From the NCBI RefSeq assembly GCF_019649055.1, contig NW_026570226.1:1054001-1118000 (forward strand): a stretch of DNA of 64,000 bases. The letters run 5' to 3'. Shown one piece after another: positions 401-47,701 of this stretch. A program made the translations under genes and the position numbers. The DNA comes from Paramacrobiotus metropolitanus (Eukaryota; Tardigrada; Eutardigrada; Parachela; Macrobiotidae). The notes under the pieces are model-generated. The model was given only the letters and a program-made list of their open reading frames with translations. It ran no database searches and was not told where the DNA came from. Every line of letters begins with the position of its first letter. The first letter of the stretch is position 1.

Positions 401-3400
401 ATGGCCTTCACACCAACATCCTTCCGTGGCCTCCCACCATTTCCCTTTCATAACCAAATGCACATGCAGGCCATGGCCGCGGCGGCGGCGGCCCATGCGG
501 CCAATTCGGGAATGATTCCTACGGTCGCACCCGGCCTTGGTCTTGGTTTGTCCGTACAACAGATCGCCAAAGTGTGTGAAGCGTTGGAGGAGAGTAATGA
601 TATTGAACGGCTAGCTCGCTTCCTCTGGACACTGCCATTGTATAACAACGCCAGCCCTCAGGCCATGGAAGTGCGGAAACACGAATCGGTCCTCCGTGCT
701 CAAGCCATTGTTCTCTTTTACAGCGGAGATTACCGGAATCTCTATTATTTGCTGGAGAATCACCGCTTCAGTAAGGAACATCATCAGAAATTGCAGAGTA
801 TGTGGATGGAAGCGCATTATCTGGATGCGGAAAAGTTGCGCGGACGACCATTAGGCCCGGTCGATAAATACCGGGTGAGGAAGAAGTATCCGCTGCCGAA
901 AACTATCTGGGACGGCGAACAGAAGACGCACTGTTTTAAGGAGCGGACAAGAAATTTATTACGGGAATGGTATCTACAGGATCCCTATCCTAATCCACAG
1001 AAGAAAAAGGAACTGGCCCATGCCACCGGCTTGACACCCACCCAAGTGGGCAACTGGTTTAAGAACCGCAGACAGCGCGACAGAGCGGCCGCAGCCAAAA
1101 ACAAGTAAGTGATCCCGTTGCACATCCAAACTGCTTCCGCAACCATTACTCGGTAGTGCTACTCGGTTCCTGTTGCTACTCGGTAGTGAAAATTTGACAT
1201 ACAGTTTTAATCAAGTACAGAAATTCTGAAATATAATAACAATTAACAACCCATGTGCTCTTAAGGTAATTTAGTCGGTGCTATAAATTTTTCGTGGTTT
1301 TGATTACACTCATTATTGACTGCGAAACAGTTTTATATGGCATTTACGAGTATCATGACAATAAGCACGTATCAAAACAGGGAAACTAAAAAAAACAGGA
1401 TAATAGAAGAAATTTATTACTGAAGTACCGCAAAATTGTAAATCATGGAAGTATCTGTCAATGTGCTATAAATTTAACATTATGGTGGGTATTAAACTTA
1501 CATATTCCAAATCAGATGGGTACGTTTTTTAGCAAGAACAAGGTTTTATTGCATGGCTTCAATCAAAACGCAGAACGAAAATACATTATAATCTACAAAT
1601 GCGTATCTTATTTGCGTTTTTGTAAGATACCCAATATATATTTTCGGTATACAATAGGTAACAGTAAAATTTTAGTTACTTTGGTATGGAGTGCATGGGT
1701 GCATTTTTGCAAAGTTATATTTGAGTAAGGGCACAAAACTCTCGATCGGCGACTATAAAGCTCAATACATTTAATCAATGCAGAAAGTGATCTATATGCA
1801 GACTGCAGTGGTTAATTTTCGAGCTTATCGAATACGGAGAAAACAAACAAGTAGTCTGTATTTGGCCCGGAACTATTTTCTTTTGCTTGGCATGTTTGTT
1901 GCGTGAATATCGTTGAAGAGATCATTTCCGCGATGTCGTTAGTGATGCGGGGATTTTTGATGGGGTCGAGACAAATTGGATCTCGCTAACGTTTACATAG
2001 CCCGGAAGCGAGTCACATATAATACGTAGATATATCAACGTTCCCGAAAACTTTACCATGCACAATTCGGGATGAAGATTTCATGGCCCCCGGCATCAAC
2101 TTTAAGGGTTTATCATGCAAATGTTAGTTGATCTTTTAACGCTATCAAATTAGTAGAGCAGTATAAACATTGTGCGCAATCATTATTTTCTTTTTTGTTC
2201 TAGAAAAGTAATGGTAACACTTTCAAACTTTTTTCTTACTTTCAAACTTTTTGTTTCGCAGTTTATTGATACATATAGTATAGCGACAAGGAGATTCACC
2301 TAAGCAACGAAAATTATGACGGTTAAACTGCGAATCAGAGCATATTGGATTTTAATATCAATGAACAGAAGAAGTACCTGATCCAGCAGTTCAAGACAGA
2401 TTTTATACATCAAAGATAGCGCAAACTTGGTGACAATAATACGAACAAGACACGCAAATAGAATATCGGATTCTGACAGAAGTGTTCTCCATTTAGCACT
2501 GACGCGATTGCGTCCGCGGCCGTACGAGAGTGAATATGTGATTGTGCACACATCTGCATCAGCAGAACTCTTGTGTAGCAATGTCCTGCGGGCTAATATG
2601 ACAAGAGGCCAACATTATCATTGGATTTTTGTTGTCTGAAGAGATATAAATTAAATCTCTAATGTAAGCAACGGATTCATCAAATCGTTTGCCCTCAGCT
2701 AACCGCGACCGCTGCGTTGGTCGCCGAGCTTGCACATGCGCAGAGCTCATTCTCACTGAAAAGAAAATCATCCATTTAAAAAACCCCTAGGAGACGACAT
2801 AAACGAGATTAACTGTCTCAATAAACAAATACGTATTATTATGCACTACCGTTTTGCTAGAGTTTGCATATATCCTTTTCCGGCATTGAGCGGTGCTTGC
2901 GCGATCAGCTCATGTAATAATGTATATAGAAGTACTCCTACTCATAAAGTCACTCTACGCTCCTTGTGGTTTGGCCGCTTACGTTTTGCGTAATAAGTGC
3001 TCGTATATCAGTAATTCAGCATCAACTACCAAGTGCAAGTTATTTGTGCACGTTTTTTAGAAAATGCCGATCATTATAAGCGGTAAATCAATAAAATTTT
3101 TTTCTAGATACATGTATATGCAGCATCCTTCCACAAAATCGAAATAAGCGATCAGATTTTCATCTGATATAGATATCCTTTACAGTTATCATTGATTTAT
3201 TGTGTACGCCCGATTTACCTGAAATTACATATTTAGCATATGCAAGAGAAGTTTTGTGTGGTTTGGTATTTGCCATGGTATTTGAATGGGATGAAATAAG
3301 TAGTTATGCACTGTGCTTAACTTAAACTTGATTATAAATGCTGCAAATAGAACGCGGATTGAATGGCAAAAAAATTGTCAAAATGATTTTTGCCAAAAAA

Positions 3401-4136
3401 CTGCATCAAAAATTTATCTCAAGAATGCGAGCAACAGGCCATTGAAAATGGGTGTCGTCTATAGTAAACGGTGGTAAAAGGGTACCTATAGTGTCACATA
3501 AAAAACGAAAGAATTGTGAATTTTACGTATTGCAAATCTTGCAAAATAATATATGGACAGTGCCGATGTGTAATAAAATGTACTATTCATTTTAGGTTGC
3601 ATGGGTCACACATGGATCGCGGCATGTCCGTGTCCTCGGACGCCGACGACTGTAACAGTAAAGATATGGACGACTGGCCGGATGACGACAAGCTCCAGAA
3701 GAAATCTCCTTCCCCGCCATCGCCTTCCAACAGTATCCAACTGGCCTCCTCCACACAGCTTCCGCCAATGCATCCCTTAGGCCCGCCACCTTTTCTTTTC
3801 AGTCCACATCTATTTGCCAGTCACTGTGCCATAAATCCCGTCAAACCCGACGTTAGCGATATACTATCGACAATGCCGGTGCATAATTCTGAAGTGTCTT
3901 CAACATCGGCGCCCAACCATTTCACTCCATATCACCAATCAGAGCATCGACCCGATTCCCCACAGAGTTTCATTTCCACTGCATCGACCCAAAACAATCA
4001 GCGCAGCCGCAGTCGATCGCCGGCACCGCAGCCCCTACCAAACACCGGAGATGCACCCGCATCCGATTCAAACAGCACTTGTATCGATTTAAGTATGAAT
4101 GAGAAAGCTAAATTCCGTTCAGGCCGTCGAATATGA
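401..4136 (+). CDS. SIX3: SIX3/6-type (Optix) homeobox transcription factor
   Basis: Sequence-specific nuclear transcription factor of the SIX family, subclass Six3/6, which patterns the anterior head, eye and forebrain in animals. Exon 1 is 401-1104 (donor GTAAGT at 1105) and exon 2 is 3596-4136 (acceptor TTTTAG). The phases fit, giving 414 aa. An Ala-rich N-terminus (residues 25-35) precedes the SIX domain (about 50-165) and homeodomain (about 168-228). The homeodomain has WFKNRRQR and the [16 protein letters not shown] start typical of Six3/6, including the THCFKE signature. The C-terminal tail from exon 2 is disordered, rich in Ser and Pro, acidic near its start (SSDADD, DDWPDDD), and has an RSRSRSPAP run. 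The start is the first ATG in frame before conserved sequence. A possible poly(A) signal AATAAA lies at 4629. The subclass call is firm. The exact 3' exon choice is inferred but phase-consistent. Confidence 0.93.
1105..3595. other. Intron of the SIX3/6 gene
   Basis: A 2.49 kb AT-rich intron with a consensus donor (GTAAGT) and acceptor (TTTTAG). It is far longer than the 50-100 nt introns common elsewhere in the window. A short duplicated word, TACTCGGTAGTG, occurs twice near 1150-1190. It may carry regulatory sequence, but I see no gene in it. Confidence 0.6.
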
Positions 4137-14778: not shown

Positions 14779-15189
14779 CTATTTTAAGAAGTGATTGACC
14801 TTTTCAGCAACAAAATTCGGTTCTTCCAACCGATTTTGTTCATGGCCATTGAAAAATTTGACCATTGTCGGTATGCTTTTGATATTGGCATTGGTCCGGA
14901 AAGGATTTCCGGGATTGTACCAAGCATCTCGATTTCCGACTGCTACACGGATGACTTCCAGTTCTCCTGAGGTCGCTTTAAGGGCGTCTCGTACTACGGG
15001 CTCCGCAAATTCACTATCCAGACACCAACTGCTTTTCGTCAAGGGATCGACGCTGCCGTAAAAGTACGCTATCACCGTCGATGAACGACCTTTAACTTCC
15101 TGCAGCGCGGTGTTGTATTCGCTCCATGTTGATACGTCATGAATTCTTGCTGCAGAACGCACAGCGGTGGATATCCAACGATTAAACAT
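14779..15189 (-). CDS. TXNDC17-like thioredoxin-fold protein with degenerate active site
   Basis: Single-exon ORF of 136 aa of the TXNDC17 (TRP14) family, small cytosolic disulfide reductases reduced by thioredoxin reductase. Family hallmarks are visible: IAYFYGS, the active-site loop, AEPVVRDAL, AVGNRDAWYNPGNPFR and the cis-Pro loop IPTMVKF. The WCPDC active site of the family is here WCLDS (residues 55-59), so the resolving cysteine and the Pro are lost and CxxC dithiol chemistry should be impossible. The first Met lies about 14 residues before the usual family start. The extra N-terminus (MFNRWISTAVRSAAR) has Arg residues and no acidic ones, as in a mitochondrial presequence. A TTCTGCAG just upstream of AARIHD could instead be a splice acceptor, so the start is uncertain. 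A canonical paralogue lies 2.3 kb away on the same strand. Confidence 0.85.
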   Translation of the reverse strand: MFNRWISTAVRSAARIHDVSTWSEYNTALQEVKGRSSTVIAYFYGSVDPLTKSSWCLDSEFAEPVVRDALKATSGELEVIRVAVGNRDAWYNPGNPFRTNANIKSIPTMVKFFNGHEQNRLEEPNFVAEKVNHFLK

Positions 15190-16220
15190 AGAGTGGGGAT
15201 CCAGTTCAAGCTGGTAGATAGAAAAAGACGATAGTTGCTATTAATTATTTTGCTGGTGTGGAAGTCGTAAATCCTGATGTAATTCCAAGACAGTTCTACT
15301 GGTTTAGGGATTGTGTAATAAGAAATAACGTGATCCACTGATCATATAGCAGCCGGGAGCCCACTTGCTGCATCATATTATCTGTAGATAACAGAGGATA
15401 ATTTGCTTTTCGTCGCGCATATGCATGCAAGCGGCGACCTTAAGTTCTACATGAAGTCTTTAATACTTGTACACCACCATGATAGTCAAACGTTTTTCTC
15501 GATAATCCAGTTGCGAACATTGTCACATTAATTCTTAAATTTATAAATTCTAATGCTCTAAAAATGATAATTGATCACAGGTTTTGAAGGTGTTCCCACT
15601 TTCCAGCCCTCGTGAAAAACTGTAAATTTGTAACCAAATTTTGTATTTTCTAAGTACGAGTATATACTGATATGGTTATACCATTTATACGTAACGCAAG
15701 TCGTAATAAAATTAATATTATCCATCAACCAACACTGCCAAATTACACTTTAGACACTGTCATCTGAATCATGGGATATGAAATTCCAGAAAATGTATGG
15801 TCCAGAGTCTCCAGACTCAAGTGTCAACCAATCTCACTTTTATAGTTTTTTTATAGTTCTTTACTGTATTTATTAAGTACTTTGTATTTTTACTGTATTA
15901 TAGTACTTAATTTACAGTGATTGCTGTACTGTGCTAAAACGGAAAACCATAAAAAACCAGGCAACAAGGATTTAGTCAGACTCAACTTCAAGTGAATTCC
16001 AGGTACTGTAAATACATTTTTTAATCGTTACTTACGATTTACCTAAGACTACAAAACATGACTGAAAACTTCCAAGTGGAACTTAATAGTAGTATTAGTT
16101 ACTACTGCTGTGGAAAAATCGGAATCGGACGGCGTCACAGCACTTTTTCGATATATTTTATTCCTATAAATTACAATTATATCAGAATGTATTACGAAAT
16201 CCACTGATAATGACATAACG
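15190..16220. other. Intergenic stretch upstream of the TXNDC17-like gene
   Basis: About 1 kb of AT-rich sequence between the degenerate TXNDC17-like gene and the inverted-repeat element. The short ORFs here look spurious. It presumably contains the promoter of the minus-strand gene. Confidence 0.4.
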
Positions 16221-17455: not shown

Positions 17456-17836
17456 TCAGCTTCGTAGAAAACTGTTAACCTTCTCCGGAGCAGCGCAGTC
17501 CAGTTCCTCCAGTCTCCCAGCCTCTTCGCCATTCTCCAGCTTGATTAACGTGGGAATGCATTTAACTTTGGCTTTCAGTCTGTACACGTTGTCCGGGGTC
17601 TTCCAAGCAGCCCTCTCTCCGACGGCCACGCGAACTATCTCCAGGTCCTGGGGCGCATTTTTGAATGCTTCTTTAATGACTGGATCAGCTAGTACGCAAT
17701 CCGGACACCAGCTCTTCTTCGTCGCCGGATCCTCATTGCCGTAGAAGTACGCGAAAATTTTAGGACTCCGCACTTGGACTTCTTCAATGGCTGCGGAATA
17801 TTCGGGGTAGTCAGATACGTTATGAATTTTCGCCAT
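17456..17836 (-). CDS. TXNDC17: TXNDC17 (TRP14) thioredoxin-like disulfide reductase
   Basis: Small cytosolic oxidoreductase of the thioredoxin fold. Family members reduce cystine and protein disulfides using electrons from thioredoxin reductase. The 126 aa product is close to the roughly 123 aa of mammalian TXNDC17. It has the family active site WCPDC (Cys44 and Cys47), the FAYFYG strand, DPVIKEAF, VAVGERAAWKTPDN and the cis-Pro loop IPTLIKL. I start at the ATG of MAKIHNV because the frame upstream contains a good splice acceptor (CTTACTTGCAG, near 17883), so upstream sequence is probably 5' UTR or intron. An in-frame ATG at 17911 would add 25 residues. It is about half identical by eye to the degenerate copy downstream, so the two are probably an old local duplication. 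Confidence 0.92.
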   Translation of the reverse strand: MAKIHNVSDYPEYSAAIEEVQVRSPKIFAYFYGNEDPATKKSWCPDCVLADPVIKEAFKNAPQDLEIVRVAVGERAAWKTPDNVYRLKAKVKCIPTLIKLENGEEAGRLEELDCAAPEKVNSFLRS

Positions 17837-18782
17837 TCTTATCTTTAAACCAGTGACTTTGTCTAATGCGCATAACAGAATCTGCAAGTAAGGTCGAGAG
17901 GAAGTTAACATACCAAAGATGTAATACCGTTACGACTTACGTGACGCCTTCTGTACGAGCTGTAAATAATTCACAGGTGTCAAGTGTAAAGACAGTAAAG
18001 TAAAAAAATGTTTTCTTAAAACTTGCCAGAACAGTCAGTGCAAGCACGGTACGATGTCCAGACTCCAAAGTTCCAAACGAGAAAATTTTTTATAAAAGAC
18101 TGCTTCCCCGTGGTGGCTGCAACCACCACGTAATAATTCTCAAGTAAACTCGATCTCATGTCATTTTCTTATTGTTCCTTCAGCCTTGAAATCAATAAAG
18201 TTTTTCCTTCAATTTCAAAATGATGTTTGAAATTCTCACTACAGTCGCAAACGACAGCAGACTTTTCGGAATTTAGCCTGATTATTACCAAATTTGCTCG
18301 TAACAACTACGAAGTGCTTAACGGTTCAGCCGGATTCATGCGCTTTTGGCCTTTTTCGAAAGGTTACTTACTTTATTATACATACCTGCTACCAAAACAT
18401 TAAATTTGTACAAAGGTGAGACCAGAAGGTCAATAATATTGCCGGCCAAATCTTTAGGCACTACAGCACTCTAATTCTTTTACTGACAAATGCTAAAATT
18501 TAAGATGTGAATCATGAGGTTGCATTTGTATTTTAGATGTACTACGTACATAAACGCATAATATTATATGCTGGTGGGATACAATATTACTGTATGTATC
18601 TGCCACCGCATTTCTGTTGCACATTCTCTACCAAAAACTCTTAACATTTCAAACATGCAGCAAAAAAAATCTTACTGCTTCATCGCCAATAGCAGTGCTG
18701 AATGTGCCACCATCTGTAGTCTGTACACACAAAAGGTATTGCTGAAAAGTCAAATGTAATTCTGAAGGTCTGAATTTTTTCC
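17837..18782. other. Gap between TXNDC17 and MRPL13
   Basis: About 950 nt holding the TXNDC17 5' region and the MRPL13 3' flank. A perfect 8 bp hairpin (CGTGGTGG, loop CTGCAA) lies at 18109-18130. I see no gene. The short plus-strand ORF at 18568-18759 has no recognisable features. Confidence 0.4.
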
Positions 18783-20880: not shown

Positions 20881-22425
20881 TCAGTAAGGATGGAGCTGAG
20901 CTATACCATCAGAATCCAGACATATGTAGGAATCTCGGCCAACAGAAACATCCGAGCACTTTTCCTCCATTGGTGTCCAAATACCATCGACACGTTTCCT
21001 AACGGTCATGTTGTCGCCGACCACAACGACCACGTCTGCATTGTAGATGCCAAACCGTCTGCCGTTTATTTCATACGGTACATATTTCCTGTTGCCGAAG
21101 TCCCACCGCCAGATGATGTGGTTAGAATCCGCATAGAGCAGTGATCCATCTATTCCCAGACCGACCATACTAACGTTTTTGGCACTTTCGTCCCGCAACC
21201 ATTGATGATCCAGCCAGCGGTACAAATCTCCTGTTGCTGTTGCCGCTTCGTCATAACTGCGAACTGCAACGAAGGTTGCGGCGGCGCCAGTTGGTAGATC
21301 CGGCAGCTGTTGACATTAAAAAGTCAGTCAGTGCTGATAACACTTAAGATTCGAATAAAATTAGAAAGCGTCAAGTTAAAGATATTAAAAAAATTAAAAA
21401 ATCCACTTTAGAACGCATATACACTAGTTGATATTAAATTAATAATTAACCACTCAAACGCTTTGTCTAGTTGAGTCTAGACATCTAAGACAGTACGACT
21501 ATATTATTATAATAATAAGAATAGTTATTACCGGCTCAGATTCTTTTGCGCCGCGAATTCGCCGAATTTGACCATTCTGCTGAATGTACCATACACTTCC
21601 ATCAAATCCCTGAGAAAAATGGCGAACATTTTCGGCAACGACAACGTCATTCCGGGTAAACAGACCGGTTATTTCGACGCGCCGGAGTTCATTATCGGCG
21701 TTAATATAGTGAAATGTTCCCGGTAGTTCGCAAGAATTGATGGTTCTGGCGTCGGAAGCGTATACAACGTTCCATCGGAAAATAAAATCCTGTGCTGATT
21801 TAGAGCGGCTTGCAGTTTCGTCAGTGTAGTTGACGAATGCGCCAGATGACGCAGTGACGGCTGTGTCGTTTTTTGGATAGCGATTTCCGTCGTCCAGAAG
21901 CAGCGAATCGTTGATGGTGTCTGTGTCGGTTGGTGGAGTCAATTTCTTGCTTGCCTTAGCACTTTTGTTATATTGCATCTGCTCGTCGAACGGAGATTGT
22001 TCGAATAGGTTACCGGTAATATTGCTCGAAATATTAGCAACGATCAGTGACGCGCTTGTTTCCACGACATCGCTGGTATTAGAAGGGAGTGGCATGTTCA
22101 GTAAACTGAAAACTGGTTTCATATTCTCCCGAGTGCTCGATGGTGCAGTGGCTGGTTCGATGCTGGATGTGTGGTGGTCACTTCCTAATGTGCTGGGTTG
22201 ACCGCTGAATGCCTGGTCGTTTGGTATCGATACTCTGGTCACACCCATACGCGCTGATGTTGCTGGCCACCAGTTCGGCGCATCGGTAGTCGGCAAAATA
22301 GGTTTTGGAATGTTAAGATTAAAATCTGGACTTGGACGGGAATTTACATAAACCGGTTGGCTTATAAACCCTTGAGAATAAGAGTGGTCCGGTTCGTATG
22401 AACTACCCGAATACTTAGACCACAT
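20881..22425 (-). CDS. Unrecognised protein with tectonin-like beta-propeller repeats
   Basis: Two exons, 21532-22425 (donor GTAATA) and 20881-21306 (acceptor TCAACAG), join in phase 0 for 439 aa. The first 200 residues are low complexity, rich in Ser, Thr and Pro, and look disordered. The C-terminal half contains repeated units of the form GxDGSxxYxxxNxxIxRW, seen as FDGSVWYIQQNGQIRRI, GIDGSLLYADSNHIIWRW and VSVGRDSYICLDSDGIAQL. Such units resemble tectonin/TECPR or other lectin-like propeller blades. I cannot assign an orthologue. There is no evident signal peptide from the chosen ATG. The frame stays open a little upstream (GLAY before the Met, behind a TTTCAG), so a further 5' exon is possible. 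Confidence 0.65.
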
Positions 22426-23505
22426 ATAAGCCAGTCCTCCTGAAACGTCCCATACATACTCGTATAAATGATTACTTATCTTAAGCTCTTGCTACCAAAA
22501 AGTACTGCAGCTGTATTACATAATATTTAACGTAAACATACAGATACTCAGTATATTGTCATATGTTGTTTTTGCACTTATTGCGTTGTTGCTGATTAGT
22601 GTTGCTGATTTGCACATGAAACCACCTACCTAACCCAAGCAGCGCTCCCCAGAATAAAGGACCCATTGCGTTAATTAAGAAAACCGGTATTTATTTTCAC
22701 GCAAGTCGATTGCAACACTGATTTTGGGAAAAATGCTACGTTAACGTCATAGACATGATACGGTATATGATATTTATAGTATCTGCGACACGGATTTGCA
22801 GGTGACACCGGAAGCAAAAGTATGAAACCCGTTTTGGCAATATCCGGCGTTCGCGGTTATCCGGGTTAACCAAACGGTAAGTTACCAACCGAATGTGCCG
22901 CAGTGCCTGGACACCAATTAACTCAATTAAACAAAACCTGGTGGTATTGTATATTACACCGGAAATGGATTGCCCTGGAGGGATGGCTTGAAATGGATTG
23001 TCCTGGAGGGATGGCTTGCCTAAAGGGAATATTACATATCTCGTGTTCACATAGTGCACTTTTAATAGAATTTTGGTTTCCTATTACAAAATAATAACAT
23101 CAGCAATCAAAATGATTTCTGATCTTTAACTTTAATGAACGACAATAACAGTGAGGGCTGACCGCGGATAGCTCAACATGCACGTTTTCAGAAATTACCA
23201 CAAAGCAAACTGCTCAGGTCATCCAGTATAAAATTAAACGGCTGTAATCAGGTAATATTGTCCTCATCTACAGATCGTTACAACACACCCGATATATGTT
23301 AGCAAAAACACAAACAAGCATTTCCCGCGACTACATAAAAAACAACCAATAAAATGGTTTAAAGAAAGAGCGAGATAAAACCAAGGTTCTGCTCCATGTC
23401 TGCCACTTATCCAAGGGCAGTATTCGAAATGGGACAAGTGATGACTGGAATCACACAATTCATCCTACGTCAAAACATTCATCGCTCAATCCACTGTGTG
23501 GAGAC
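22426..23505. other. Intergenic region upstream of the tectonin-like gene
   Basis: About 1.1 kb without a supported gene. It holds a two-copy tandem duplication near 22962-23017. The minus-strand ORF at 22736-23059 spans that duplication and lacks recognisable features. Confidence 0.4.
22962..23017. repeat. Two-copy 28 bp tandem duplication
   Basis: The 28-mer beginning GAAATGGATTG and ending GGAGGGATGGCTT occurs at 22962 and again at 22990, with one C/T difference. Confidence 0.85.
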
Positions 23506-26500
23506 TCATTTTCGACTCGGCGCACCTTGAGCACTACGCAGTTTTTTCACTTCCCTCAAGGCCCAACTGCTGAACGTTTTCGTTTTCCCCTTACTGGACT
23601 TCTTCCCTTTTTGCAACAGTTCAATAAAATCCGCTCGGTCCAACAACGGAAGAACTTCAGTGCCAAATAACCCACACAGTTCTCTGCAAAGCCGAAATGT
23701 TTTGCGACACCCCCATTTAACTGAAGTTGCAATATACTATTTAGTAGCGTTCACCGTAATACGAATATAAGATTTCTTGAAAATTCGCTTGTAATGAATT
23801 GTCCAAGAAGACAATGGTTTTGCTTATAAAACCCTTTAAAACAATTTACGCACCCAATAAGTCCGGCCGAACTGAGAATGGTACTGTCCTGAACACTGCT
23901 TGAGCCGTTTTCAGTGGCAACATGGCTGATCAAACTGATGATAAATTTGGTGTAATGGTGCACGACACTGCGTGCATCTTCTGCAAATACCACGATTACT
24001 GCTAATTCAAGATCTATTCATCAAACCGCTTACGACTCCATGTCTCGCCATTCCCTTTAAGACCATTAAGAATGCTGAGGGAAGCATCTAAAATGGCGTC
24101 TAAAATCTCCAACCATACGTCATGATCCTAAAAACAATCCCTATGTCAAAACAGGAACCCAGGTATCATCACAAAATTAGCAACCAGTCATACCTGAGGT
24201 ACCGAAATCGCCATGAGACATTCAAAAGACATGAGTGCGTAATTCTGAAAGTGGGTATTGAGAGATATGGCAATATCCCCAAGTGTCTGGACAGCTTTTG
24301 GTTTCATAAGTCCAGATGGATCACTCACATGCTGAAATGCAAACATTTTCACCCATTACAAATTCCCAATCCGTTTACAAAGAATTCTGTAACTGGTTTT
24401 GAAACACCGCAATAATTTAAAAAAATCAAAACGAATTACTAAATGAATCAATAACACTTAAAAATAAAAATCAACACGAATTATATCACTCACCTCAATC
24501 TAGCAAATTAAGTAACTGAAATGTCTGAACTTATCCCAATTCAATACTTACTGCGATAATGTGTAAGATAGCATCCAAGAGCTCGCCAATTAGAGGCATA
24601 ATCTTCACGTCGAACACGCGACACAACTCGCCAACAAAAGCTAAGGCGCTATTGACCAGCTGCAAAAATCATGTGAATAAATAGCGCCGATTACCAAATG
24701 AAAAGTGCATGCAAAGCAGCAAAGGCAACCCGCAGGACTCACCGAATGTTCATGATAAGCTTTTAAAGCATTCATAATGTGCGGCTTCACACGCTCCACA
24801 AACGGACTAAACATGTCTTGCAAACCTATGATTATTATCTTCATTAATTTAAGACTGATGAAGGTTAACTTCTTTTCAGAAACGTAAACAGCAAAACACT
24901 TGCCTTCCAGCATGACATATAAACACATGAAGGCTTCAGGTTCGGCTTGGAAACTCCGACCAAGAGGGTGCAGTTTCAGGATACTATCACAAACCACATA
25001 CACCTGCTCCGTAACACCTGAGAGTTCTTCTCTACGCAGCCGTTTTAATACTGTCTGCAACAAAAACGCACGAGAATAAAATTCTGGGTAGAAAACCACC
25101 ATAATTTTTCTTGTATTGTCGAGAGCGCTACTTAAGACGCAAGCACATTCGTATATCATAAATTTCGAATACCGAATTAGAAGTACACAGGAAACCTCAC
25201 ACGTGTAACAATCACAAAAAGTAAACTTATGTAAAAGAACTAACCTGCAACAAGGCCAAGAAATGCTGACAGAAATCTCCATGTTGGTGTCGCTCGCTTG
25301 CAGAGAGCTGTGGATCTTTCTGTATGATAGCATTCAACTGAGAGAAGATGACATTCGAGTATCTCAGAACGAATGGATAGCAATCCTGAAAAAAGCAGCA
25401 AATCTCAGCAACACTCATCTTCAGGATACTAAAAAAATGTAAGTAAGCTCACCTGTGGCGCATGACTGAGGAATTCCCCCAAAGCTCCAAATGCTGCAGT
25501 GCGCAAGTTATTCTGATCAGCGTCCGGGCTAAAAAAATCGAGTTAGATCTGCAAAGGTGTCTTAAAAAATACGTCAACGGGTGAACGAACGCATACCGAA
25601 AAACGATTGTTAAAAGCTGGCCAACGATAGCTTCGTAAGCGGAGGATAACGCAGAAGTAGCAGGAATTTCCGAGCCGCTGCCTTGAGCAGCTTCATAAGA
25701 TGCTTGTGCAAGTGTTCCTAATGCCTGAAGAACGGGTTTCTTACAGTGAAAATAACATTGTAACCAAATTCCTTCTAATACTCGTCAAATTAGATTTACC
25801 CAACAAACATTCGACGCGACGCGGGGAGGATCATTGAGATGGCCGCACAAAATTTGGACAGTATTTTGAAAGCGGTTCGGAACAAGAACGGCTTCTCGCA
25901 TCAGCTGGCACATCCGCTGAACAACCCATGCAGCGCTATCACGGACTGCGACGTTTCCGTCATCCATTTTCGCTAATATCACGTCGTACGCCTGGATCAC
26001 TATGGTTCTCAAATACTCTGGCTCTGGTCCTTCCAGCACCGATCCTAAACATTTCGAAATAACTCAGACCAGACTAATGATATATAAGTAATAAGCGCAA
26101 CAGCGACACACTCCTTCATAACACAGATGAAATCAATTCTTGCATTTACAGTCCTTAACAATAACTGCTAATTCCTTACCGAATGCAACGCATGCAGCAT
26201 CGCGAAAACGCCAGTCAGGATTATAAATATTTTGATCCACAAAAATAATAACAGGCTCCAGCACAGCCTTCTGAACACACTGAGCGATCAACATTAAGCA
26301 CACACTGGCGGCTTTACTCGGCACCCAGTCGTCGCCCTCATCAACTTCGGGTTGCTGCGCCAATAGCGTCAGCAGACATGGAACAACAAATTCGAGGTAT
26401 TCCAAGGAGAATTTATAGGATCTGTTTGCGGGTGTTCGGCCTTCATCTCTTGCCTAATAAATAGATTTCAGGCCTTACTATTCTTAGAACAAACATAAAT

Positions 26501-37900: not shown

Positions 37901-38609
37901 CATCAGTATTTTAGACACGCCAATAATTCTGCAGTAAATATCTTGCGAACCATACTTGTTTAAGCAGGCAGCCGCTCGCTACGCCAGCACCGGTGGAAAC
38001 CGGCACGGTTTCCTTCGCCTCATCCAGAGCATGGGCAATGTCCTTCTCGTCTGCGGACTGGATCACACGATTCACACCAGAATCCTCTTCGCATGCGCTC
38101 GGAATACGATTACTGATATTTTCATTAACCGTCTTTTCCGGTGGCGGACGTAGCTTCTCAGGGCTTTTCGTAGCGCACGATTCCACCAGCATCGCCGAAT
38201 TCGTCCACAAATCCGGGACGTCGGTGACGACATAATTGGGCCGTTTATACTTGTACGTAATCGTATTCCGCTGTGCATCTTCTTTGCGACGCAGCGTTGT
38301 GCCGAATGTGGCGGCCTGCACGGAATTCGATACAAAATTCACTGGCTTCATAGCCAGTGAAGATTTTTCCTTGGTGGGTCGGGTCGGAATGAAGGACGGC
38401 GGGGGCATAAGATGGCGATCAGCTGTGCTGGAAGGGCTGCGCGGCGAACTGTTTTGGTCAGGCGTGCTCGATCCGTCGTCCGCCCATGTTGTTTTCCGCC
38501 GGGTGTTCGATGCGCTACTGCTGGGGGTTGATACAAAAAGGACCTCATCTTCGTCAGGAAGGAAATCAATGGCAGACAGGGGCCCATTAGAATAAGACCC
38601 GTTAATCAT
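34925..38609 (-). CDS. SON: SON-like RS-domain splicing cofactor with G-patch and dsRBD
   Basis: Nuclear-speckle protein that supports splicing of weak introns. Two exons, 37956-38609 and 34925-37669, join in phase 0 at LLKQ|IFTTTE for 1132 aa. The order is a disordered N-terminus; long Lys/Arg/Ser-rich RS-like stretches; a conserved SON block with a LREAAIKNAIELRRMGKIPP-type helix and NHPYHVKDRPLLTEI; YPVSTGSNHR; a G-patch at about 987-1030 (LLQKMGWIAGQSLG); and a C-terminal double-stranded RNA-binding domain at about 1057-1128 (HPCSALNEVC, KTFLFQVIINGVEY, KKIAKAEAAKYCLQAIG). The large tandem-repeat region of vertebrate SON is absent, so this is a compact invertebrate form. Other G-patch/dsRBD proteins are less likely because of the middle block. 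Confidence 0.92.
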
Positions 38610-39920: not shown

Positions 39921-40520
39921 TCAAACCCTCGTACGTAATTTCTCGCTACTGGTTGGACTATTCTCAAAAGGCGTGTAGAAAGCCGGTTCTTTGACGGGAA
40001 AGCTGGTCTTCTGTGTGGAGATTTGCAGAATACTGAGCCGTTTCTCCCTCGCGGCAGATTTAGCATCCGTGCCGGTTTTCGAGAAATTCTCAAATAAAAC
40101 AAATAGTTTGCGATAATAAACATAGTAATACAAATAACTAAAACAGCGTTGAACGGTATACAGGGCACGATATCCGACGATAAACATAAATGTCGTATCG
40201 CTCTGATACCACTGATTAATGGCCCAAATGTGAACGCCCAAGCATAAACCAAAATATCCCGTCCAAAATGGAGCAATGGCCACGTAGCTAATTAACGTCG
40301 GACGTGGTCCACCGTTCCGTCCGTAAAAAAAGGAGAAAATCTGAATACAGAAAATGGCTGCCGCTAGAACCAGGCAGACATCCTGCACAATGTACAAGGA
40401 AACTTGTATTTGCGTTGTTTCCATAAAGAGACCGACGATGATGTTGAAGGTCAAATCGGCCAGTAGAAGCACATGCTGGAAGAAGGCGAAAATACGGAAA
40501 CCATGTCCGGAAGCAGCCAT
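39921..40520 (-). CDS. TMEM138: Transmembrane protein 138 (ciliary)
   Basis: Four-helix membrane protein required for primary-cilium assembly in vertebrates and mutated in Joubert syndrome. Single exon, 199 aa (human 162). Four hydrophobic segments are visible. Family motifs include VSLYIVQDVCLVLAA, matching the LFIIQDI region of human, GVHIWAINQWYQ in the third helix loop, and ALYTVQRCFSYLYYYVYYRKLF at the end of the helical part. A polar tail rich in Ser, Lys and Thr follows, longer than in mammals. I start at the ATG at 40518-40520 because the frame upstream opens only with non-ATG codons. It lies head to head with AHI1, about 1.1 kb apart, so the two may share a promoter region. Confidence 0.88.
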   Translation of the reverse strand: MAASGHGFRIFAFFQHVLLLADLTFNIIVGLFMETTQIQVSLYIVQDVCLVLAAAIFCIQIFSFFYGRNGGPRPTLISYVAIAPFWTGYFGLCLGVHIWAINQWYQSDTTFMFIVGYRALYTVQRCFSYLYYYVYYRKLFVLFENFSKTGTDAKSAAREKRLSILQISTQKTSFPVKEPAFYTPFENSPTSSEKLRTRV

Positions 40521-41614
40521 TGCCCAATAATAAATGGGTGCAATCAAGGCGATTAATTTTTACAAATCGACAACTGCGAGCATTACAATTCACAAATTCG
40601 ACCCACGTTGCATCATATCTATACATTTAAGGAAAAATGTTAACACAACAATACTGGTCAGTTTATCGAAAAATCAGACGAATGCTTTAATCGCACGGTA
40701 GTAAGGTGGTAGTATACGAATGTGGGGAAGATAATGAAAATAGCATCGGTTAACGATAAACGAATTTACAACAAATTAGACAATGATAATAATACAATAA
40801 TGATCACCGTTCCGCACGAGTACAGTCATGCTCGAGGGATCAATTGAAACAGGTACATATTCTGTAAAATACGTGATGGCGAGGGATCTAAGGATGTTGT
40901 AGTACGCTGTGTTTGTCATGCTGTTCCGGTTGACTGTGAAATTCACAACCTGTCGGCCTTTCCATGTGCTGATCGATGCTGTGCCGGATCATCCGGTTGA
41001 TCTCCGCATCGTACCGACCCACGCTTCCCAGGATTTATTTTTGAGAGCCAGCTACCTTATCCTTTACTGAGTCAGGTACGATTTCATCAGTGAGATATTA
41101 TTGATTACTAAAATCTTCTTACCGTCTAATGCGTCTGCTCAGTTGCAAGGTACTCGCGCGTCAAATTCAATCAAAACATGGGTCCATATCTATATACTGT
41201 ATGTATGTATGGTACAATGTGCATACTGCCGCGTGTCAGTGAATGTGGTTTCTGCAGGTTCAAACTAGTACTGGAATCTACGCATCCATGGGTAATCTAC
41301 CGGCAAATATCGACAGCTGTTGGATCGACACTTACTGCTGTATTTAACTTTTAATAAAAAACGAATAATGGATTGCATAGCTGTTTCTCCGAGTTATATC
41401 TGCTGCTCCTGTTAAGTTTGTAAATCACATTCGGATGCTCCAATTTGGGTGGGAATTCGTTTTAATTCTGCTTGCCTCCAACCTTTGCGACTAAAATATT
41501 TTTATGTTACCGTTATACATTTTTTTGTTGGTCATGATACTTATTGAAGCAGTTCAAGTTGGAGCTATTCATGCCTTGTAATAAAAGCTGATCCAGCGCT
41601 TCTAACGCAATAAA
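40521..41614. promoter_or_regulatory. Putative shared promoter region of TMEM138 and AHI1
   Basis: 1.1 kb between two divergently transcribed ciliary genes. No gene is visible. I did not find a clear X-box (RFX site) by eye, but the two half-sites are degenerate and I did not score the region. The role as a bidirectional promoter is inferred from gene order only. Confidence 0.35.
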
Positions 41615-44600
41615 ATGGATCGTCCCGATGAAAGCTTTGCAAAAGCCGCTACCAAGCACTGGTTTCGTGACTTGCTGGGTGGAAAAAATAACTCTGCAAG
41701 GTCCTCCATTCCCAACACCGCGCGGACAGTCACGGAGCAGTATGACCTTACGGAACGGATTCCGTCCAATAAAAGGCGGACGCGATCGGCTGGACACTTA
41801 GAGTTTTCCAGACCTATGACCTTTGCTGCTGTTGACCATCCTGCTGGGTTGGCGGATGAGAAAGATGGTTCATACAGCGCTCAGGTGGCAACGGAGAGCT
41901 GCGAATCGAACTACGGATCTGAGACTGGTGGTCGAAATGCAGTTAGCACTCCGGAGAGCTCGCAAGGTATACAAAATTTATCTAATGACTGCATTAATGC
42001 GCCCTTCGGTTGCCAAACTGTCTTTTCTAAAATTGCAGGACGACACGACAGCCTCCGTATAGAAAATGAAATATCAGAAAACTACGCCGAAGAAAATACC
42101 TCAACTTCACCAAGAAAGGTACAGTCCTGTGTGGTGTTGAAATTAGTAAATACTTTTACATATATTTTTCAACACTCGTGATTAATTTTATCATCACTTG
42201 CCCTGCCCGTAAATTCTGTGGTTGACTAAAGTATACAGCTCGCGTACAGCTTGGCTGATTAGCTGACAATTATTACTTATTTTACCAACAAACTGTGATT
42301 TTATGATATCGCAGTCTTAGTGTCTTACAGTACTAAATTTTTTATTTGTACAATATTTTGAATTGCATGAAGGTCACTATTTCAAGGCACTATATAATAT
42401 AACTACATATATGTATGTCAATATTTTTCAGAATTTCGAGCATTCACTCACTAACCACGGTGACCCCAAAGAATCGGTAACTGACAACTCACTTATCGAA
42501 CGGAGTGCTGCTTCCCACCAGTCAAGCCACGAAATAACTCGCTCGGACAGCAGCTTGGCACTTCCTTTAAAACCATTCCCAAATAACAACGATTCTTATA
42601 TCAATGATGAAGATGTTAGGACAAATTCGGCAGAAAAGAAAGACGAAACATTAAAGCTACCATCACCGGGTTCGACCGACTCCGACGAATATTTGGTTGT
42701 CGTTAGCAAAGATTTGATACCAATAAAGAAGTACCGAAGGCGAAGGAAATTAGAATCCCCAGGTGGCGATCACACCAAAGAAACCGTGAATCTGCCGCCG
42801 AAGATGATCGTATCCGAAGTTAAATTACCTAAAGCAGAATTAAAGCACACTGAGCAGGAGCAAAAAGCGGAACCATCAGCGAAGATTGAAACTGAAGATT
42901 TCAGTCGTACAATAAACGTATCGGAAGAAGATATGATTGTAGCCGAAGAAAGCAACGAAGGTATTTGGCACAGCAATTGAAATAATTGTTGATAATATGG
43001 CATAGTTATTACAAATATTAATAGTGTATGTAGAAACTTTTGAAAAGCTTGAAAGGTCAGAAATATTGTTAAAGCAATTTATAAATAAGCAATCGACATA
43101 ACCAGTAATCACAAATACGGGTTTACCTGTCGTTGATCATTATATATGTCATAAACGGTAGTTTGCTAACACTATCAAGCAATCAATCACAATGTGAATT
43201 ATAAAAAATCTAAACAGGTGTGAGGTTTGCAGAACTTGAAGTGCAAGAGGAGGAAAGGATTTTGACTGCTTCCAAAGACAGATTGCGCAAAGTTTTCGCT
43301 TTAATCGTTCATCGTACAGACCGGCTGGCAGTGAGTTCTCTCGTCCAAAGCGTGGTGGTCAGAATAAGCATAATCGACAGATCGACTTCCGACTATCTTA
43401 AAAAAACAAAGCGGTACGCGCAAATCATATAACAGTCGACCATACTCACCATAAATTTCTCTCTTCTGTCAGATACGTATGCACAGAATTATAACGAACC
43501 TGCTTAATTTTTCGTGTTTTGACCTAAAATCTGATAGATTTGATCATTTTTTAGAGCAGCAACTTTTTATTACGAGAACGCCCGAAAGGACCTGGATTAT
43601 ATTCTGCCGGTTATGACCAGAATCTGTGATATACCAAAGTCTTCGAATCCAGTTACAAGTATACCGGCGTGGGAGGAACAGTTGCTATATAATGAAGAGT
43701 TCGCGCGATTTGCTTCTGAAGATGTTTTGCTGTTTTTCGAGGTAGTTATGAGCCGCAGTACGTGATGTCGTGATGTAATCAAACTTCGAACGAAACACAT
43801 TTATTTATGCCAAAACAAAATTTCCGCCCAAACAATTAGTTCAATTAGTTAGCAATTTCTGCCCAAACAATTAGTTCAAATGCCCGATGCGCGTATGCCA
43901 TAATATTTAATTGCAGTTACATACGTAAGATTTATATTTTTCGTATAAAGTTGCAAAAAGTTATAAAATTTTTCGTATAAAGGTATCTGTAAAAGTATAG
44001 AAGTATATATATTGCAGTACATTAACTGCAACTTATCATTTTAGCTGGCTGACTTCATCCCAGCAGCAAAAGCCACCAACCCATCCAAATCACACAAATG
44101 GGAAGATGCCTCCTTCAAACCAGTTGCTTGGGGGTTTTACAAAGTACAATCAGAAAATGTGGTGCAATATAGTTGTATTTTTTGAGTGCCGATTGTTTGG
44201 TTGCAGATGCAGTCGCTGTCTAAGAAAGTGACTACTGGAAGGAAACGGCTACAGCTATATTTGCCTATAAGTACGGGATTATTAAGCAAGCGGTCTGCGA
44301 CATTCCCCACCATTTACCGGTGGTACTTAACAAAAATTCGCATTCGCTATCCCTCGACTTTGTATGTAACATTAGTGGAAACAGAAATTTCCAACAAAGT
44401 GCCACCAGTTTTGCGTTCGGTGTTGCCGAATCAACCGGTAAGGAAAACTGGAACTGAAATTTTGTTATCGTTTGTGCGTAAGTTCCTGTTATATAACCGA
44501 AAGTTTTCTAGGAAATCGCTAAAGTCAGCTATACTCGTCTGAAAAGTATGCTAGGATCACAAATCAATCTTGAAGGGTCAAGGTAAGAATGCAAAACATT

Positions 44601-47186
44601 GTCCAGGTAGATTGTCCCTTAACCGCCTACAGAGTAAATGTGTTTTTTTATTATAAGCCTGTTCGGTAATACGTAATCAGGAAATTTATCTGTCACGTTA
44701 TCAGTTTTTCCTTGTACGTAGTGCTTCCGAAACAACGGTCGAGACTCACCCAAAGAACGATAACGAAAATGATGTAAAGTTGACCAGCGAACCGACCAAG
44801 CGCAAGCAGCGAGCTTCCGTCCGCTTACCACACCAGAAATGTCTAATACCGAACAATGTGCACATGGAAATCGCTGTAGGTCAGGAAGGAGCCACTGCTA
44901 CAAAATTCTCCATTAGCGGCAGGTAGAAAACATTTACCAGTCATTATCTGCACTCCCGGCTGTTGCACGTGGCAGTCACCGAATTAGTTGACCTTTAACT
45001 AGGAATATTGCTTTTGCTTGTTTTGAGCGACAAGCGGTGGCCTTCGTCCAAATCAACGATGTTCGCAGTAGTATTGTTCGCGGGCGATTGTATGGATCGT
45101 GCGGCATTATTTACGAGCTGGACTGGAACCGTGCAGATAGCAGAATATTGGCTGCTAGTGCTGACGGTACCGCAAAGTAATACATTTGTAGTAACATGCA
45201 GCCGAAGTAAATAATAATAATAAGTTTTTTAGTATATTTTAGTCACTGTAGACTTTCTGGCTGGCAAATGATTTAGCCTCATATTCAGAAATTTTTGTTT
45301 CAATCTTATATCAAGCCGGTTGTGAATATGGTTTATGCGCCTTTATTTCGCTAGCAGAGCTTTTACTTTTTTATCTCACCGTACCCTAGGATATGGAATT
45401 CCGAAACATGCCATCCAAATTTTCTAATTTCCTTGCCACATCCGGGATTTGTTTACTCTGCTCAGTTTCATCCCGTGCAGCAACACATTGTAGCAACCGG
45501 ATGTTTTGATGGTGTTATTCGTGTCTGGAACGTATCGACCAGCTGGAACGATGTAAGTCACCATTCCAATGAACACTTTAAACCAATATACCGGTAGATG
45601 CTTCAGATAATTTCAAAATTAAATTGTAACTTCAGTTCTGTAGTATCCAGTTAATCGAGTAATCTTTGGTGCAGAGTATTATATTTAAAAAGCTCAGATA
45701 AAAATATATGTTTTAGTTAAGCTATCGTACCCTTTTTCAGTTTCTCCTGATCGCAGAACTCTCCAGTCACTCTGGATTTATCAATTGCTTGCTGTTCAAC
45801 GAGCTCGGCAATGAACTGTTTTCGGCCGGAAGCGATGGATACATTAAAGTGTGGAAGCAAGGAGAAAGCGCATTAAAGGTTAATGAAAATCTGGCCAACT
45901 GGAGTCCCTCGCATGAACTGCTAATTCCAATCAACGTTAACACTGCATCGGGAATAACGGATCTTAAATGGATTCCAAACCGAGGAGTACTGCTCGCTTT
46001 GACCCAAGACGAAGAATTTCATTATATTGACACCAAACGGTAATGCGAACATGCAGTGACGGTAATAACGGAAAGGTTTAGTTTTACATATATAAATTGG
46101 TGCAGATTAAACATTTGCGATACAAGGCATGAGATATACTGAAACGCTGCTTAACATAAACTAAAAAAGGCGGTAGAAAAATTGCCACCATCAGAGTGTT
46201 ATAACAACGCAGTACGGACATTGGATGACGTTGATTAGTTCAAAGTGGTGTCTGCTTCCGTTATATTCAACTAAGGTATTTTTGGCAGCTTAATTGTAAT
46301 CGGAAGTGTCGTGATCGGTGCACCGGTGAAGTATCGCCTGCGCGGAGCAGTCACACCATGCGGCAGTCATTTATATGTGCCAACTAACGAATCCACCATT
46401 TCGGTTTTTAATCTCAGCGACGGAAAGCAGGAACGGCAAATCACTAATGCGGTCCCAAGCGCCGTCCTGGATGTGGACTTTCATCCTTCCGAACACATGC
46501 TAGCATATTGCGGACTGGGTTACCGCAGAAAGGCGGTGATAATGAACCACTACAAAGAATTCACGGATACCCCCACGTTAACGCTAAAGCGGAAAACAGA
46601 AAAAAAGCGGGAAATTCTGCCGGTCATCAAGCTTGCTAAGGGAATGTCCTTGATTGACTCCGGAAGGGCGTATTCGCAATCGGAAAAAATTTCGGTTGTA
46701 TTAGAAAAGCTGAATGAAATCACGGTATGTTAACGATTGTTATTCCGATATTGTTACTCGTTTGGCCTTCGGTCTTCCTTTCTATCGATAATACTTGACT
46801 ATTTTTTGGAAATATTTTACCGTTGTGACTCGGAAAGATACGATCGGTGTACATTTTAACTTTCGTTTGTTGTGTATACTAACCGCTGTCAAAACTGTCA
46901 AATCTTAACTCCTTTCTTAACAACCAGAGTACCTGGTATATTATACATTTCGGTCAAATATATGCATAACTCTATAAACTTCCCTGTTTTGCTTTTGCAG
47001 AATGATTTAAAAGCCCGGGAATCTTTAAGTATGGAGAACCCAAACCGGTTGTCCACAGCGGAAGGCAGGATCGCAGCAGCCGCGGAACATAACCGCAATG
47101 GCAGCTGGATTTCCCAAATGACGCACACGGGTACACATCACCAGCACACGCATAGAGGCTTTATGCTCAATTTGAGCAAGTTGTAA
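41615..47186 (+). CDS. AHI1: Jouberin (AHI1), WD40 ciliary protein
   Basis: Transition-zone and basal-body scaffold for ciliogenesis and ciliary signalling. Thirteen exons: 41615-42118, 42432-42960, 43218-43413, 43555-43741, 44045-44158 (or 44161), 44207-44437, 44512-44582, 44722-44922, 45003-45176, 45390-45552, 45741-46039, 46289-46724 and 47001-47186. They give about 1096 aa. Residues 1-345 are disordered, with a basic KKYRRRRK patch. Next is the jouberin-specific C2-like region (FAELEVQEEERI, ATFYYENARKDLDYILPVMTR, EDVLLFFE, RYPSTLYVTL). The WD40 propeller spans about 640-1000, with units such as GCFDGVIRVWN and FSAGSDGYIKVWK, and the jouberin TPCGSHLYV segment. The C-terminal SH3 domain of vertebrate AHI1 is not present before the stop. 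AATAAA at 47608 is a possible poly(A) signal. Confidence 0.93.
43839..43884. repeat. Short direct duplication in an AHI1 intron
   Basis: The word GCCCAAACAATTAGTTCAA occurs twice, about 34 nt apart, inside the intron after the exon ending at 43741. It looks like a small local duplication with no other features. Confidence 0.6.
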
Positions 47187-47701
47187 GGCGCGAAATTGGC
47201 TTGTAAACAATGACGTTAAAGAAGTTAATGCTGTTGCACGTGTTTAATGCGTTATAGCGGTCTTGATTGTACTATTACAGTAATTTTCAGCTGTACCGTT
47301 ATTGGTACTAACACCAAAAGTATTGTTACTATCAGACGGACCGAACCTGGGCTAAGTTTAAGGCTAACCACGAAAGGAGAACCAACTCTGTATAAAATTG
47401 TTTTCAGAGTGGATCCCACTTCTAATAAGATAGATGCTTCAGAACCAGTCACCAACGAAACGACTGTTTAGTACCGGGTACGACAAATGCTGACACGTTT
47501 CGAAAGACCGCATTTACAATATACACATGTACAGAGTACAGATACAACACAGCAGAGTGCATCTTTAGACTTTAATTGAGATCCATCAACACTGCCCCGA
47601 GTATTAAAATAAATAACAGTTGTTCAAACAACTATCATATGAAGTAACAGAGCTTTATACAAAATACTGTCAAAAAATTAATGTCACGAACCAAAATAGG
47701 T
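47187..47701. other. Convergent 3' gap between AHI1 and adenylyl cyclase
   Basis: About 515 nt of 3' flank for two convergent genes. AATAAA at 47608-47613 on the plus strand could serve AHI1. The overlapping short ORFs at 47247-47471 look spurious. Confidence 0.45.

Follow-up and report, generated by a model that had tools for sequence, protein, structure and literature searches.

The closest described system is the JBTS2 locus of vertebrates, in which TMEM138 lies next to TMEM216; the two genes are arranged head to tail and RFX4 binds between them (PMC3631122, PMC12148096). An earlier note on the DNA analyzed here had stated that this vertebrate pair is adjacent and co-regulated, and both points are in those publications. 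A more general comparison is provided by the divergently paired genes of Drosophila, which are defined by start sites less than 1,000 bp apart and account for 31.6% of genes (PMC2670823), so divergent neighbours are common in that genome.

We analyzed a window of 64,000 nucleotides and found TMEM138 beside a different partner. As in the vertebrate locus, adjacent Joubert genes that include TMEM138 are separated by a non-coding stretch. In contrast to the vertebrate locus, the partner is AHI1, the arrangement is head to head, and no X-box was found between the genes. Like divergently paired genes, the two are adjacent on opposite strands with their starts facing apart, but that definition is based on start sites, and the 1094 bp here is the distance between start codons. 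The features of the locus are as follows.

39921..40520, minus strand: TMEM138, coding sequence in one exon, 199 residues and a stop, Pfam PF14935
40521..41614, no strand: interval between the start codons, 1094 bp, with no X-box found; a third gene is unsupported
41615..47186, plus strand: AHI1 (jouberin), 14 exons encoding 1072 residues and a stop
43218..44582, plus strand: AHI1 exons 4-8, stretch alignable with human AHI1, ahead of the WD40 repeats
45003..46724, plus strand: AHI1 exons 10-13, WD40 propeller
47001..47186, plus strand: last AHI1 exon, in which no SH3 was found; no Pfam matches up to E=1

TMEM138 and AHI1 are intact neighbouring genes

Both members of the pair are genuine and intact, and the gene names, strands and spacing given in the earlier note were correct. 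The TMEM138 reading frame runs on the minus strand from an ATG at 40520 to a stop at 39921. Residues 41-141 of its translation matched the Pfam TMEM138 family (E=3e-13) with a score of 50.9 bits, above the curated cut-off of 27, which places the protein in the family. Members of this family are expected to have four membrane-spanning segments. In a simple hydropathy profile of the translation, peaks stood out clearly around residues 10-18 and 36-51, with weaker peaks at 7, 27, 76 and 80 and no fourth above 1.3.

The exons of AHI1 were placed by hand, with boundaries picked to fit GT...AG and an open frame; the 13 GT-AG introns are therefore a product of construction. The spliced model is a single open frame with no internal stops. 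Residues 368-943 aligned with an approximate reference sequence for a central region of human AHI1 (E=1e-87; 180 of 583 columns identical, 31%). The alignment also covers the stretch ahead of the WD40 repeats, where a WD40 protein of another kind would not match. The repeats themselves were detected by Pfam (E=9.7e-21), so that the protein has the order expected of AHI1/jouberin, with an AHI1-type region first and the WD40 repeats after it. A search by sequence for PDB relatives of the region encoded by exons 4-8 found none (best E=0.42).

Human AHI1 carries a C-terminal SH3 domain, which invertebrate members may or may not retain. No SH3 was found by Pfam in exon 13 or exon 14 up to E=1, and none was among the 25 families listed, of 26, in a scan of the whole AHI1 protein. 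The predicted protein thus resembles vertebrate AHI1/jouberin in its conserved region ahead of the propeller and in its WD40 repeats, and differs from it in that the last two exons lack a detectable C-terminal SH3.

Two features of the AHI1 introns were also observed. Six of the 13 end in TAG instead of CAG, a possible clue to lineage; such intron ends are unlike those of C. elegans and argue mildly against close kinship with it. In addition, the intron at 41967-42038 leaves the reading frame uninterrupted, and its retention is possible.

An error in the identity or integrity of one gene, which would make the pair unreal, appears very improbable. The hand-set exon boundaries of AHI1 and the possibly retained intron leave some room for it. 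Against it are the TMEM138 score above the curated cut-off and, for AHI1, a frame that stays open over 14 exons together with the strength of the alignment to human AHI1.

The window as a whole is that of a gene-dense animal genome. TMEM138 belongs to a run of minus-strand genes, AHI1 is directed away from it, and an adenylyl cyclase gene converges on AHI1. Three further features were placed as follows.

401-1105, plus strand: SIX-class homeobox gene (SIX1_SD, E=3.9e-45), with a possible further exon at 3492-4133 (plus strand)
14782-15237, minus strand: TXNDC17-like ORF, judged by eye
17459-17929, minus strand: TXNDC17-like ORF (PF06110, E=1.5e-32)

The SIX gene is a diverged Six3/6-like gene. 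Compared with approximate reference sequences, its identity was 77% with human SIX3, 73% with fly Optix and 67% with worm CEH-32, values that do not favour a nematode as the host. Within an otherwise near-invariant homeodomain, it has two lysines in common with CEH-32 (KKKELA, AAAAKNK), and its N-terminus presumably resembles that of CEH-32. The two TXNDC17-like ORFs lie about 2.5 kb apart and appear to be a tandem duplication. Two ORFs at 20881-22491 (minus strand) may form one gene; their weak Tectonin match (E=0.0046) is below the cut-off, and the N-terminal part is unplaced. A coding-looking ORF at 37911-38609 (minus strand), between SON and TMEM138, had no Pfam match and is perhaps a 5' exon of SON. 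Pfam matches and known protein families also pointed to an exon of a mitochondrial-type L13 ribosomal protein, an adenylyl-cyclase-type gene and an OATP exon. We take a HEAT-repeat protein to be importin beta, a helicase to be RAD54, and a protein with G-patch and dsRNA-binding domains to be SON. No Rfam match was found in the window, nor any tRNA in a search that used the bacterial code.

The interval between the start codons

The earlier note had set an RFX-like site in 40521-41614 as a check on co-regulation. X-boxes are reported 100-250 bp upstream of the coding sequence in C. elegans (PMC2873420), and those listed for flies are mostly within about 320 bp (PMC2375033), which makes the whole interval the proper search region. 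The published degenerate consensus RYYNYY-N1-3-RRNRAC had no match there on either strand, compared to 1.85 expected by length; across the whole window it had 108. Five stricter published forms also had no match in the interval. A looser RYNNYY form matched once, at 41397 on the minus strand, compared to 3.32 expected.

Scoring by matrix gave the same outcome. A first, approximate matrix gave a best score in the interval of 6.79 out of a possible 18.1; 94.9% of 315 segments and 89% of 300 Markov shuffles did at least as well. A second matrix drew on 28 X-boxes from 14 fly genes targeted by RFX (PMC2375033, Table 2); scored with one gene left out at a time, these sites had a minimum of 10.8 and a median of 18.1. 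The best score in the interval was 0.59, compared to at least 10.8 for the 28 published sites, on a matrix that is from fly and may not suit this animal. This best score was equalled or beaten in 251 of the 252 overlapping tiles, each 1094 bp long, into which the window was divided, and widening the search to 40320-42038 raised it to just 2.82. Left out of the fly matrix were two further pairs from CG9595, two from CG12548, one from CG13178 and the second pairing from CG15161, and table rows with 0 conserved X-boxes gave no site. Including the omitted weak sites would lower the score threshold; their consensus, RYYNYY-N1-3-RRNRAC, is still unmatched in the interval.

On the sequence, with two matrices and eight forms of the consensus applied, we rejected control of the pair by RFX through an X-box, and the missing site counts against the co-regulation that had been suggested. 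The strength of this result is limited. Fly control genes bear as many X-boxes as targets do, and just 70% of conserved fly RFX targets retain a conserved X-box (PMC2375033), so a search in a single species is weak either way. A study in C. elegans gives 102 ciliome genes with a predicted X-box and 61 without (PMC10393296). Some RFX targets have no recognisable X-box, and its absence here is weak evidence, not proof.

Just two sites in the window attained the scores of known X-boxes, and neither is upstream of TMEM138 or AHI1. The best, GTTTTCAGTGGCAAC at 23907, is most likely there by chance, since it lies inside the probable importin-beta coding sequence. The other, at 47619, is a palindrome, GTTGTTCAAACAAC, that scores like a known X-box and is located past the AHI1 stop, before the point where the converging cyclase gene ends.

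The interval contained little else. Its direct repeats were two-copy families of 10-16 nt and its inverted repeats had widely spaced arms of 10-18 nt, all such as would arise by chance. When 386 ORFs were ranked by codon score, a single one of the top 90 was inside the interval, with a score of 6.7 that was below those of several antisense ORFs. The one interval ORF scanned (40776-40985, minus strand) had no Pfam match at E 0.01. Given the low codon score and the lack of a match for the scanned ORF, a third gene in the interval is unsupported.

Chance adjacency or selection

We consider chance adjacency of ordinary divergent neighbours the most likely explanation, with a probability of about two thirds. 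In this reading, TMEM138 and AHI1, both genuine transition-zone genes, happen to lie side by side and divergently in an animal genome that is compact. Each would most likely have its own promoter, no RFX site common to both being present, and their membership in one human disease group (Joubert) would most likely be coincidence. Coincidence is favoured because the DNA between the genes lacks the X-box, the switch expected for cilium genes. Of the two alternatives raised in the earlier note, chance adjacency is thus the more likely, and RFX co-regulation has found no support in the sequence.

The numbers expected by chance depend on the class of genes considered. If a genome of 10,000 to 20,000 genes is assumed to include 15 to 40 Joubert genes, it would be expected to contain 0.003 to 0.04 divergent adjacent pairs of them, and this low expectation counts against pure chance. 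Assuming a ciliome of 200 to 500 among 12,000 genes, 0.8 to 5 such pairs would arise by chance. The larger class makes the more appropriate reference, because the pair was spotted post hoc and in one of many windows. The 1.1 kb between the start codons is also not tight.

Other observations point toward selection. One review states that AHI1 cannot be placed in the distal transition zone of photoreceptors without TMEM138 (PMC12966366) and a second describes the two proteins as closely associated there (PMC12148096); each refers to work on Tmem138 and Ahi1 published in PNAS in 2022. With TMEM138 reported to be needed for AHI1 placement, the pairing is not one of arbitrary ciliary genes, and a divergent pairing of a protein with its placing partner is a sensible target of selection. 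The binding of RFX2 to Tmem138 in mouse testis (PMC4498915) also counts against the explanation that we prefer.

The pair could accordingly have been selected for joint work at the transition zone and have in common an element other than an X-box, such as a forkhead-type site, an RFX site that has diverged or an enhancer located beyond the interval. We regard this as unlikely, even with the reported functional link between the proteins (PMC12966366), the binding of FKH-8 with RFX to ciliome genes of C. elegans (PMC10393296), and the co-regulated ciliary neighbour that TMEM138 already has in vertebrates (PMC3631122, PMC12148096), since the interval has no X-box and its repeats are short and chance-like. 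Less likely still is that the adjacency is an old linkage from an ancestor of the lineage, kept by inertia and not by joint regulation. Intact genes and a missing X-box are compatible with such a history. Queries with SON and AHI1 against viral contigs and with TMEM138 against prokaryote contigs, collections in which animal genes would not be expected, found no relative. Among the matches listed in literature searches on the pairing and on AHI1 in nematodes or mosquitoes, none described a TMEM138-AHI1 pair. For the chance reading that we prefer, the two genes, their orientation, the interval and the missing X-box are observations, and from these we infer separate promoters and a chance origin.

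AHI1 across animals

The significance of finding the two genes together depends on the host lineage. A survey of 44 proteomes reported AHI1 absent from two nematodes, Anopheles and Drosophila and present in Tribolium and Daphnia, and tied the protein to canonical triplet centrioles (PMC3454386). Its absence from Drosophila is repeated elsewhere (PMC5087661), and AHI1 is counted in a core set that spans ciliates and flagellates (PMC4092220). TMEM138 of C. elegans is found at the transition zone (PMC12148096). With AHI1 present in Tribolium and Daphnia, the two genes together would be unremarkable in a beetle or crustacean and notable in a nematode or fly. A nematode host is suspected from the two lysines in common with CEH-32, the presumed N-terminal resemblance and the compactness of the genome, which provide a lead and not a test. 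It is quite improbable that all of the following hold: that the host is a nematode, probably early-branching, that retained AHI1, and that its head-to-head arrangement with TMEM138, its presumed placing partner, is a second, independently evolved ciliopathy pair under regulation free of X-boxes. If the host were a nematode, its AHI1 would revise the reported absence from nematodes and limit the published link between AHI1 and canonical triplet centrioles.

As the evidence stands, the result is a sound annotation of two genes whose adjacency is probably a coincidence. A conserved pairing would give a second neighbourhood of Joubert genes, in addition to TMEM138-TMEM216 in vertebrates. It would join a membrane protein with the protein that it reportedly places, and would raise the question of whether ciliopathy genes cluster beyond chance.
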